Assembly: GCF_010671925.1 (NCBI RefSeq) | Contig: NZ_JAAHIH010000001.1 | Span: forward strand, 310,001-374,000 | From: Moorena sp. SIOASIH | GTDB taxonomy: Bacteria > Cyanobacteriota > Cyanobacteriia > Cyanobacteriales > Coleofasciculaceae | Direction of reading: 5' to 3' | Length of the DNA: 64,000 nucleotides | Shown here: piece after piece, positions 4,013 to 53,145 of the stretch | Layout: every line of letters begins with the position of its first letter | Numbering within the stretch: the stretch's first letter is position 1 | Notes under the pieces: model-generated | What the model saw: only the letters and a program-made list of their open reading frames with translations | Databases searched by the model: none | What the model was told of the DNA's origin: nothing | Position numbers and translations under genes: made by a program

Positions 4013-5731
4013 ATGAGTTATCGTATGGATCGTCGTGCCTACGCCGAAACTTATGGTCCTACCGTAGGCGATCGCATCCGCTTGGCTGATACAGAACTAG
4101 TGATCGAAGTGGAACAGGACTACACCACCTATGGTGATGAAGTTAAATTCGGTGGTGGTAAAGTGATTAGAGATGGAATGGGACAATCCCCCATCTCCCG
4201 CGCCGAGGGTGCTGTGGATTTGGTGATCACTAATGCCCTCATCCTGGATTGGTGGGGTATTGTTAAAGCCGATATTGGTATTAAAGATGGCAAAATAGTC
4301 AACATTGGCAAAGCCGGAAATCCCTACATCCAGGACAATGTCACTATTATTATTGGTCCTAGCACCGAAGCAGTTGCTGGGGAAGGCATGATTGTCACCG
4401 CTGGGGGGATTGATGCTCACATTCACTTTATTTGTCCCCAACAGATTGAAACTGCGATCGCATCTGGTATCACTACTATGATCGGGGGTGGTACAGGTCC
4501 AGCCACTGGCACTAACGCCACAACCTGTACTCCTGGTGCTTGGAATATTCACCGGATGCTCCAAGCTGCCGATGCATTTCCTGTGAATCTAGGGTTTTTA
4601 GGGAAAGGCAATAGTGCCAAACCCGAGGGATTACAGGAACAAGTGATAGCGGGTGCGATGGGATTGAAGCTGCACGAAGACTGGGGCACTACTCCAGCCG
4701 CTATTGATACCTGTTTAAGTGTAGCGGATCAGTTTGATGTCCAGGTGGCAATTCATACCGATACCCTTAATGAAGCCGGGTTTGTGGAAAATACCATTGC
4801 TGCCTTCAAAAACCGAGTCATTCACACCTACCACACCGAAGGAGCAGGGGGAGGTCATGCTCCAGATATTATTAAAGTGTGTAGTGAAGCTAATGTATTG
4901 CCCTCTTCTACCAATCCTACTCGTCCCTATACCCTTAATACCCTAGAAGAACATCTCGATATGCTCATGGTCTGCCATCACCTAGACCGGGGGATTCCTG
5001 AAGATGTGGCCTTCGCTGAGTCCCGGATTCGTCGGGAAACTATTGCTGCTGAGGATATCCTTCATGATTTAGGGGCATTTAGTATGATTGCCTCTGATTC
5101 TCAAGCCATGGGACGGGTGGGTGAAGTGATTATCCGTACCTGGCAGACAGCCCACAAAATGAAAGTGCAACGGGGAATGTTATCCACCACTACTGGGGAA
5201 ACTGGGGAAAATGACAATTTCCGAGCCAAGCGTTACGTTGCCAAGTATACGATTAATCCTGCGATCGCTCACGGAATTGCTAATTATGTCGGTTCCATCG
5301 CAGAAGGGAAGCTAGCGGATTTGTGTCTGTGGCGTCCAGCCATGTTTGGAGTCAAGCCAGAGATAGTGATTAAAGGTGGTGCGATCGCATGGTCCCAAAT
5401 GGGTGATGCCAATGCTAGTATTCCCACACCCCAGCCGATTCATATGCGTCCGATGTTTGGTAGTTTTGGTGGTGCGATCGCAGCCACATCCGTTACCTTT
5501 GTCTCCCAAGCTGCCTTAGACCAAGACATCCCAGCTCAAATTGGCTTACAAAAATCCGCTGTTGCCGTTTCCAACACCCGAAACTTGAGCAAGACCGACA
5601 TGAAACTCAACGATGCCTTGCCACAGATTGAGGTCAACCCAGAAACCTATGAAGTCAGAGCTGATGGGGAATTATTAACATGCGAACCCGCAACGGTTTT
5701 ACCTATGGCACAGCGTTACTTCTTATTTTGA
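4013..5731 (+). CDS. ureC: Urease alpha (catalytic) subunit
   Basis: 572-aa catalytic subunit carrying the dinickel site. The start is ATG 4013, with AAGGAG at 4001-4006 six bases before it; an in-frame TTG lies one codon upstream. All expected ligands are visible: GGIDAHIHF (two His), GLKLHEDWG (the carbamylated Lys and a His), [28 protein letters not shown] (two His), the flap cysteine in LMVCHHLDR, and the Asp of [14 protein letters not shown]. The last residues RYFLF are the conserved tail. The protein looks fully functional. With UreA and UreB it forms the trimer (alpha-beta-gamma)3. Confidence 0.98.
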
Positions 5732-50794: not shown

Positions 50795-50845
50795 TGTTAG
50801 GTTTTAGGTGTTAGGTTTTAGGTGTTAGGTTTTAGGTTTTAGGTA
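50795..50845. repeat. GTGTTAGGTTTTAGG tandem repeats
   Basis: TTAGGTTTTAGGTG repeats of 7- and 14-bp period immediately downstream of the SDR gene. Similar arrays on the far side of the IscB element: 52955-53008 (same sense) and 53111-53142 (reverse sense, CCTAACA). Confidence 0.8.
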
Positions 50846-50867
50846 AAACGCTAATTATTCGGATAGC

Positions 50868-51041
50868 CTAATTTTTCTTCTTCTCCTTTAGTTTTTCCAT
50901 CAGACTGTTGAGCATTCTTCCTATTTCATCGCTTAACTCTAAAACGGGCTGTAACTCAGAGTTTTTAAGATAAGATAATCTGCCAGTAATTAGCAAATGT
51001 GTTTCCAATTCTTTGAGAGATCCATTAGCTATGGAGAGATG
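50868..51041 (-). pseudogene. Four-helix-bundle (S23-like) protein, 3' half
   Basis: Minus strand: HLSIANGSLKELETHLLITG, RLSYLKNSELQPVLELSDEI, GRMLNSLMEKLKEKKKN, stop. This is the C-terminal half of the S23/four-helix-bundle family. It joins directly to the left end of the IscB element; the matching N-terminal half is on the other side at 52671-52880. Confidence 0.85.
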
Positions 51042-51046
51042 GTCAA

Positions 51047-51275
51047 CAACTCACCGCTAAGTCCTTCAGACTATAGCGGGAGCTTGTAAAAAGCTCATAG
51101 TTGACCAGACTAAGCTCTAAGCGAGCTACGTTATCTAGCTCATGACACCTACAAATGCGTGCCAGTTTGTAGCAACTGTCGTACAGCTTTAAACAGGTGT
51201 AGCGAGTTAAGCCAGTGAGCTGTACCGAACAAAGCTAGATAACATTGTCTAGGCAAACTTTACCCACATTGTGGA
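51047..51275 (+). ncRNA. Predicted IscB omega RNA
   Basis: Known IscB omega RNAs are encoded directly upstream of iscB. This segment has the required structure: an ACTAT/ATAGT plus AGCTT/AAGCT stem (51070-51101), GAGCTA/TAGCTC (51123-51141), GTACAGCT/AGCTGTAC (51181-51188 with 51218-51225) and a long-range 11-bp pairing GTTATCTAGCT/AGCTAGATAAC (51130-51140 with 51233-51243). The guide would be the last bases before the element's left end, that is the S23 gene sequence. Confidence 0.7.
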
Positions 51276-51287
51276 GTGTTCAAAGTA

Positions 51288-52571
51288 ATGCGAGTTTTCG
51301 TTCTAGATCAAAATAAGAAACCACTGGATCCATGCCACCCGGCACGAGCAAGAGAGCTATTGAACATGGGAAGGGCTAAAGTATTTAAACGGTACCCATT
51401 TACAATTGTATTAAAAGACAGGATTTTAGAAAAATCTGTCACTCATTCACATCGTTTAAAGATAGACCCTGGTAGTAAAACAAGCGGGATGGCTATTGTT
51501 CAAGAAGAAACAGGACGTGTCACAAGCGCCTTAGAAATATCTCACAGGGGACAACAGATTAAGAATTCTCTAGACTCTCGCAGGGCATTAAGGAGAGGTA
51601 GACGCAACCGTAAGACTCGATATCGCAAACCTCGTTTTTTGAACAGAACTCGTAGACAAGGATGGTTACCCCCATCTCTTGAAAGCCGAATTAACAATAT
51701 TGAGACTTGGGTGAAACGAATTAGAAAAGTCTGTCCGATTAGCGCTATTTCTCAAGAGTTAGTCAGGTTTGATTTGCAGCAAATGCAAAACCCTGAAATT
51801 AGCGAGGTTGAATATCAACGCGGTGAGTTATTCGGCTTTGAGGTCAAGGAATACTTGCTTGCCAAATGGGGAAGAAAATGTGTCTACTGCAACGCTGAAA
51901 ACACCCCATTGGAAATAGAACACATTGTCCCCAAATCAAAAGGAGGTTCTAACAGAGTAAGCAATCTAACCTTAGCTTGTAGACCTTGTAATCATAAAAA
52001 AGGTAACAAATATGTAGAAGATTTTTTAAGTAAAAAGCCTGAACTCTTGAAGAAAATTAAGGGGAAAACCAAGACTTCACTTAAAGACGCGACTGCGGTT
52101 AATACTACCCGATGGGAATTGTATAGAAGACTTCAAGAAACCGGGTTACCTGTAGAAGTAGGTTCTGGGGGACTGACCAAATTTAACCGTAAGGTCAGAA
52201 TGATTGAAAAACACCATTGGACTGATGCTTCTTGTGTTGGTAAATCAACACCTGAGCGGCTACTTATCAGGGGAATAAAACCGCTGTTAATTGCAGCTAA
52301 AGGACACGGAACTAGGCAGCGTTGTCGTCCTAACAAATATGGGTTTCCGAAAGCTCACGCTCCAAAAGCTAAGTTTTTTCAGGGTTTTCAAACAGGTGAT
52401 ATTGTTAAAGCTGATGTCATCAAAGGTAAGTTTGCTGGTCAATATGTCGGACGTATTGCAATTCGCTTTAGACCTAGCTTTACCCTTCAACTACCAACTC
52501 AAAAATTTGACGTACATCCCAAATACTTGAAAACTATTCACAAGGCTGACGGCTATGAATATCAATCTTGA
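51288..52571 (+). CDS. iscB: IscB RNA-guided endonuclease (Cas9 ancestor family)
   Basis: 427 aa. Starts MRVFVLDQNKKPLDPCHPAR, the PLMP domain of IscB; a GTG four codons upstream is less likely. RuvC-I HRLKIDPGSKTSGMAIV (Asp about 60), an Arg-rich bridge helix RRALRRGRRNRKTRYRKPRF, RuvC-II ISQELVRFD (Glu about 156), HNH domain CVYC...IEHIVPKSKGGSNRVSNLTL...CRPCNHKKGN (His about 212), and RuvC-III HHWTDASCVG (about 309-317). The C-terminal domain (GFPKAHAPKAKFFQGFQTGD) is the target-adjacent-motif-interacting region. All catalytic residues and both zinc Cys pairs are present. Family: omega-RNA-guided double-strand DNA nuclease. Confidence 0.95.
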   Translation: MRVFVLDQNKKPLDPCHPARARELLNMGRAKVFKRYPFTIVLKDRILEKSVTHSHRLKIDPGSKTSGMAIVQEETGRVTSALEISHRGQQIKNSLDSRRALRRGRRNRKTRYRKPRFLNRTRRQGWLPPSLESRINNIETWVKRIRKVCPISAISQELVRFDLQQMQNPEISEVEYQRGELFGFEVKEYLLAKWGRKCVYCNAENTPLEIEHIVPKSKGGSNRVSNLTLACRPCNHKKGNKYVEDFLSKKPELLKKIKGKTKTSLKDATAVNTTRWELYRRLQETGLPVEVGSGGLTKFNRKVRMIEKHHWTDASCVGKSTPERLLIRGIKPLLIAAKGHGTRQRCRPNKYGFPKAHAPKAKFFQGFQTGDIVKADVIKGKFAGQYVGRIAIRFRPSFTLQLPTQKFDVHPKYLKTIHKADGYEYQS

Positions 52572-52670
52572 AAATAAGGATACCCTATCGGGTAGTTTAC
52601 TAGAAGCGCGGCAATTCCCCTCCCGCTAACCCGTGCCGGGTATAACGGGAGTCCCCTTGCCGCATCTCAG

Positions 52671-52880
52671 ATGGATATAGTCTCCCAAATGCTGTCTCCC
52701 TTTGCCCTCAGCGATATTAGCTGGAATCGAAACAGCAGCTCGTTGAATTTGGCTGCTCAGTCCATAAATCTCAGTTTTTGGTAACTTAGAAGTAAGTTTG
52801 TAGCATAGTACAACCAAGTCCATTGCCCGATTCCAAACCTTTAAGTCTCGATAACTCTTAACTTCGAGCACCCTGATCAC
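52671..52880 (-). pseudogene. Four-helix-bundle (S23-like) protein, 5' half
   Basis: Minus strand from a start at 52880: VKSYRDLKVWNRAMDLVVLC, YKLTSKLPKTEIYGLSSQIQ, RAAVSIPANIAEGKGRQHLG, DYIH, after which the reading enters the IscB right end. Family members (ribosomal intervening sequence/S23) are about 115-125 aa pentameric proteins of unknown function. The two halves join without loss as DYIH-LSIANGS, a normal family sequence. Confidence 0.85.
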
Positions 52881-52954: not shown

Positions 52955-53145
52955 TAGGTGTTGGGTTTTAGGTTTTAGGTTTTAGGTTTTAGGTTTTAGG
53001 TATTGGGTAAAATGAGCGCAATGAGTCATTTGTATTTCCCAGAAATTGAAGCAATTTTAACCAATTCAAGTTCATAGATAGTTTTAATCAATCCATCCCG
53101 CTTGACAATTTTACCTAACACCTAACACCTAACACCTAACACCTG
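52955..53145. repeat. TTAGGTTTTAGGT array and reverse CCTAACA array
   Basis: GTTTTAGGTTTTAGG repeats (52965-53002) and, 110 bp further, CACCTAACACCTAACACCTA (53114-53142). Opposite orientations. Confidence 0.8.

Follow-up and report, generated by a model that had tools for sequence, protein, structure and literature searches.

The IscB element and its omega RNA

Within the window, i.e. the whole 64,000-nucleotide stretch of Moorena sp. SIOASIH DNA analysed here, an intact IscB element with an omega RNA splits a host gene of the S23 type (Pfam PF05635), as the sequence-only reading had proposed; its features are listed in Table 1. IscB is an RNA-guided nuclease of the type ancestral to Cas9. 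The iscB frame is open throughout, and its product belongs to NCBIfam NF040563 (guided_IscB), with a score far over the cut-off of 175 bits. By sequence the protein is homologous to the IscBs of solved structure, and aligning the RuvC and HNH motifs to these locates the catalytic residues D60, E157 and H310/D313 in RuvC and E211-H212, N226 and N235 in HNH, and the zinc pairs C198/C201 and C231/C234 (numbers counted by hand), which confirms the two nuclease domains that had been recognized by eye.

The locus shares with IscB/OMEGA systems (HEARO ORF, NF040563) the PLMP-RRXRR part, a split RuvC, the HNH, a TAM-interacting C-terminus, an omega RNA directly upstream and a guide in the left flank, but its TAM appears to be ATGG, whereas ATGA adjoins a number of the genome's other IscB and IsrB families. 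An IscB element with a HEARO RNA is an already known kind, of which this locus is a new member. The IsrB proteins (DtIsrB, BbIsrB) follow a common RNA-guided principle but have RuvC without HNH and about 350 aa; as the IscB of the window has HNH, it falls outside that family.

The Rfam scan of the window returned one HEARO RNA, covering the whole model (E 2.6e-31; gathering cut-off of RF02033, 83 bits), with the same stems as the family and no difference beyond family variation. This covariance match to known IscB omega RNAs bears out the RNA predicted earlier. The proposed 11-bp long-range pairing is perfect as well, and the covariation found in its variable half goes beyond what inspection of a single sequence had offered. 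A promoter scan, a weak test in cyanobacteria, showed no promoter-like site above chance 5′ of the omega RNA. Elsewhere in the window, positions 4168-4454 (minus strand) match the Rfam 5′ ureB small RNA family at 120.7 bits, perhaps merely as the antisense of a ureB-type gene.

The dN/dS of iscB is 0.26 against L071, a copy in the same genome, 0.10 against L112 and 0.11 against L114; the 99% identical copy L113 has too few changes for the ratio to be judged. By these values the nuclease is, or was until recently, under constraint.

Table 1. Features of the IscB element and the interrupted host gene, in window coordinates
Feature	Position	Strand	Basis
3′ part of interrupted S23-type gene	50868..51041	-	runs co-linear with its G001/G003 counterpart
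Host-derived guide stretch, 20 nt shown, CCATTAGCTATGGAGAGATG	51022..51041	+	left flank, adjoining the HEARO start; no mismatch to empty G003, one to G001
Whole IscB element, 1629 bp	51042..52670	+	clean insertion, target bases neither duplicated nor lost; empty sites in G001, G003, G006 and sister copy L071 (equal length and ends)
Omega RNA scaffold (HEARO RNA)	51042..51263	+	RF02033, 149.1 bits, model 1-211; RNAalifold on 13 related omega RNAs: compensatory changes (one or more) in 31 of 71 pairs
5′ arm of long-range omega RNA stem, GTTATCTAGCT	51130..51140	+	100% complementary to 51233-51243; compensatory changes in variable half
3′ arm of long-range omega RNA stem	51233..51243	+	perfect pairing with 51130-51140
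iscB, 427 aa, start ATG 51288 (GTG 51276 possible)	51288..52571	+	Pfam RRXRR 2.4e-73, HNH_5 1e-14; NF040563 470.8 bits; alignment to solved IscBs
Subterminal hairpin, right end (if IS605-like, the bottom-strand left end of the transposon)	52608..52663	.	21-nt arms 71% complementary; similar copies (up to 92% identity) adjoin Y1 TnpA genes
ATGG, putative TAM, host DNA at right border	52671..52674	+	ATGG at 5/5 sister insertions in the genome; empty sites ATGG or ATGA
5′ part of interrupted S23-type four-helix-bundle gene	52671..52880	-	PF05635 1.5e-22 on 84-aa stub

Empty sites in relatives define the junction

We searched 59 relatives for the empty site, using the joined flanks of the sequence-only reading as the query. 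The S23 gene is uninterrupted in three of them, Moorena bouillonii PNG (G001), a further member of the genus (G003) and a member of another genus at ~81% identity (G006), and a fourth, Moorena sp. SS36440bin_2 (G002), carries the same insertion. Aligned base by base, the uninterrupted alleles read GAGAGATG followed directly by ATGGATAT, with small substitutions between relatives, and the form GAGAGATGATGGATAT or a close variant of it, present in all three, has three more bases than the earlier junction, in which GAGAG was joined to ATGGATAT. Because three relatives have these extra bases, the left border lies after the ATG at 51041 and not after GAGAG at 51038, and with this border the joined flanks align gap-free with all three alleles. 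The insertion is thus placed between host ...CTATGGAGAGATG and ATGGATAT, and ...CTATGGAGAGATG is the natural guide end. The interrupted gene's protein reads DYIHHLSIANGS, its counterpart in G006 is EYIHHLSIANGS, and the S23 gene of the same-genus relatives reads GDYIHHLSIANG.

The earlier version, with the insertion between GAGAG and ATGG, ATGG at both borders and a guide ending CTATGGAGAG (3 nt short), had in its favour that the joined flanks are in frame, giving DYIH-LSIANGS without apparent loss. However, the frame was kept only because exactly three bases were missed, and one of two His was dropped. The three additional bases in three relatives, one of another genus, already refute that junction, though not the element; the HEARO model starts at 51042 and not at 51039, at odds with a 51038/51039 border, and none of the other four sister copies has ATGG on its left border, so we consider it to have next to no chance of being right. 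The right flank does begin with ATGG, as had been stated, and its reading as a TAM is supported, but the motif is not a duplicated border: the left ATGG is made of host ATG and the first element base, G, while the right one is host DNA. A target-site duplication of ATGG was ruled out by the empty sites. Joining flanks by eye can therefore yield a plausible, in-frame and wrong junction, which here would shift the guide by three bases relative to the TAM.

Runs of TTAGGTGTTAGGTTTTAGG-type repeats flank the S23 gene on both sides (window 50799-50850, 52960-53010 and 53110-53145).

Sister copies in the genome and in relatives

Of 44 HEARO matches in the genome, 28 exceed the cut-off. There are also about 34 IscB genes that pass the curated cut-off, a few of which contain stops. 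Four copies have the same ends as the window element, namely L071 (97% amino acid identity, and also of the same length), L074 (79%), L092 (78%) and L095 (76%). All five start with GTCAA after unrelated left flanks and are followed by ATGG. For each of these insertions, relatives provide an empty site in which the left and right flanks meet without a base missing or extra; farther out, the alignments show ordinary substitutions and small indels, and in some empty alleles the fourth motif base is A, not G. At the sequence level, five sites thus have their guide and motif resolved to the base. The statement that few IscB elements let guide, target and motif be read from one locus was accordingly too strong, as in the same genome the empty sites of four other sister loci were verified and about 10 loci of other families have a readable right border.

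An IscB 99% identical to that of the window occurs in M. bouillonii PNG (L113), with the same scaffold bar a short insertion but at another position, the S23 site there being empty, and a second 99% copy occurs in Moorena sp. SIO3I8. ATGG follows both, and their left flanks are different; the copies of 77-99% identity in other Moorena also have an ATGG right flank and unrelated left flanks. Since the 99% copies stand at other positions with other left flanks, the scaffold and the gene move together and the guide stretch is host DNA. At the DNA level, the omega RNA adjoins iscB and carries a host-derived guide at its 5′ end, the left flank differing from copy to copy and matching the empty-site sequence.

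Several further loci were noted. L092 (C1:850377) and L095 (C2:406419) appear to share one 2.3 kb group II intron (RF00029, with RT and HNH frames), which lies in the omega RNA at scaffold position ~183, and the joined exons give the uninterrupted scaffold as in L122. Related group II introns lie across the genome (29 matches), so this intron is not omega-specific. L068 (C9:128205), L082 (C8:174511) and L087 (C8:257778) are HEARO RNAs with no IscB frame behind them, one of them with the highest HEARO score in the genome (151.9 bits); these are possibly stand-alone omega RNAs using IscB in trans. Four loci of the IsrB type (RuvC without HNH) have weak HEARO matches, of which L109 and L111 look full length and L107 and L108 truncated. 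A second IscB group (L085-L105) has ends like CTCCTAGT...GTCCTA and lower HEARO scores, and its borders do not fit the GTCAA/ATGN rule.

ATGG and ATGA as target-adjacent motifs

RNA-guided, TAM-dependent double-strand cleavage is predicted for the window IscB, and we infer its TAM, from the right border alone, to be ATGG. Other IscB families of the genome abut ATGA, as read from empty sites (L073, L078 and L081), from the right border (L072) or from the right end (L070, L075, L076, L077, L079, L080 and L083), and empty sites place ATGA beside the IsrB loci L107 and L109. GTGG adjoins the related IscB L084 and copies in other cyanobacteria (L118, L119 and L121).

In DtIsrB, R323 and Q326 read the motif, NTGA; the wild type accepts TTGA/ATGA, and Q326R additionally accepts TTGG/ATGG. 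BbIsrB prefers NTGG, and its RNA-guided cutting with NTGG motifs has been demonstrated (PMC9581776). In an alignment to the solved chain, R323 and Q326, if numbered as counted, fall in the RIGQF motif of the genome's IsrB, consistent with its ATGA; the motif is kept in both full-length proteins, L109 (at ATGA) and L111. A residue-for-residue match of the Q326 reader to IscB was rejected, as the families align too poorly there to call. Among the aligned cyanobacterial IscB copies, those that abut ATGA have RK[TS]G[SYF]F in a stretch of the TAM domain, and those that abut NTGG have R[FYH][RK]PSF there. We treat this as a lead only, since the two sets are separate clades and the association is confounded with phylogeny. 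A joint reading, in which the TAM of the lineage went from A to G at its fourth base along with the transposition target, and in which the nucleases of L092 and L095, their omega RNA being split by the intron, would depend on splicing, is tentative and in our view somewhat doubtful.

Escape of empty sites from cutting by loss of the TAM was considered as a general pattern and rejected. Empty alleles with ATGA do occur (G003 for the window site, G001 for L071 and G002 for L074), but some alleles that match the guide next to the insertion keep ATGG (L074 in G003/G004, and L092 in G001/G002/G004).

Mobilisation

The ORFs of the element include no TnpA, while 25 TnpA matches lie elsewhere in the genome. 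The element resembles IS200/IS605 (Y1 TnpA) in its subterminal hairpin and in its precise insertion beside a fixed tetranucleotide at one border without target duplication, as seen from the empty sites of the five sister loci; it differs in having no tnpA, and for this reason we name it IS200/IS605-type and non-autonomous rather than an autonomous IS. The right-end hairpin recurs beside four Y1 TnpA matches (C2:81454, C3:563368, C12:55835 and C3:1171500), and at the TnpA-side ends that were read a TTGG-like sequence follows, not ATGG. TnpA in those copies points towards the hairpin end, and in IS605-type elements tnpA points to the left end. Judged by this orientation, what is here the right end of the IscB element would correspond to the left end of the transposon, with CCAT as the target and ATGG as its complement. 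It is plausible that TnpA is supplied in trans. An association with TnpA is reported for only a few of the HEARO nucleases (PMC9755519), so its lack in the window element is usual.

Proposed mechanism and alternatives

We propose that read-through from the left flank would produce an RNA whose 5′ end is host flank, serving as the guide, and whose remainder is scaffold. IscB would bind this RNA and cut guide-matching DNA next to ATGG; only the uninterrupted allele would be cut, as the guide match and ATGG are no longer adjacent once the element is inserted. TnpA of IS200-type elements would act in trans, excising the element and inserting it 5′ of ATGG. Should the empty site arise again, by excision or through a new allele, cutting by IscB followed by recombination with an occupied copy would restore the element. 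A gene-drive effect of the related TnpB has been reported in a preprint (PMC11870625). Several observations support such a mechanism: the HEARO and IscB matches far over their cut-offs, the covariation of the RNA, purifying selection on iscB, five real empty sites, the ATGG flanks, the 99% copy L113, by which the element moves and leaves its guide behind, end hairpins in common with Y1 TnpA insertion sequences, and the cutting by BbIsrB with NTGG. Counted against it are the missing promoter-like site, the absent TnpA, TTGG at the TnpA-type ends and the G002 copy with a broken iscB. Taken together with this mechanism, it is highly probable that the element is a non-autonomous IS200/IS605-type (OMEGA) element composed of an omega RNA and IscB.

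The G002 copy and the lack of a promoter-like site could also mean that the element is an inert relic of a past insertion, with no active RNP formed any more. The insertion shared by G002 (L050) is kept there although iscB is broken by another IS, presumably IS66-like as judged from its ORF sequence, and there is further damage; the nuclease is therefore dispensable for keeping that copy there, and the insertion can outlive its nuclease. In the window, however, the ORF is intact with its catalytic motifs, dN/dS is low against several relatives, and near-identical copies at other sites show recent mobility of the lineage, which makes a relic unlikely. A role in host defence or regulation, with the guide aimed at foreign or other host DNA, could be suggested by the relationship of IscB to Cas9 and by the origin of the guide-acting flank in a conserved gene. 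Yet in all copies checked the guide is simply the flank of the insertion, no exact match to ATGG with 17 nt of guide occurs in 2.9 million viral contigs, and across the own genome and the 59 relatives only the S23 site matches, apart from one site with three mismatches in G012, the own genome having no second site at up to three mismatches. We regard this role as very improbable, even more so than a relic, and favour the guide-directed restoration proposed above.

The value of the locus lies in the base-exact guide and motif verified by empty sites, together with a series of sister loci. The locus gives the natural guide and target motif to the base for an uncharacterised 427-aa IscB, from real empty sites and not by assumption. 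With its sister copies the locus turns this Moorena genome, in which ATGA families and an ATGG family occur side by side, into a ready natural TAM experiment; if the change of the fourth base is true, a TAM switch of IscB would be mappable from natural insertions alone.
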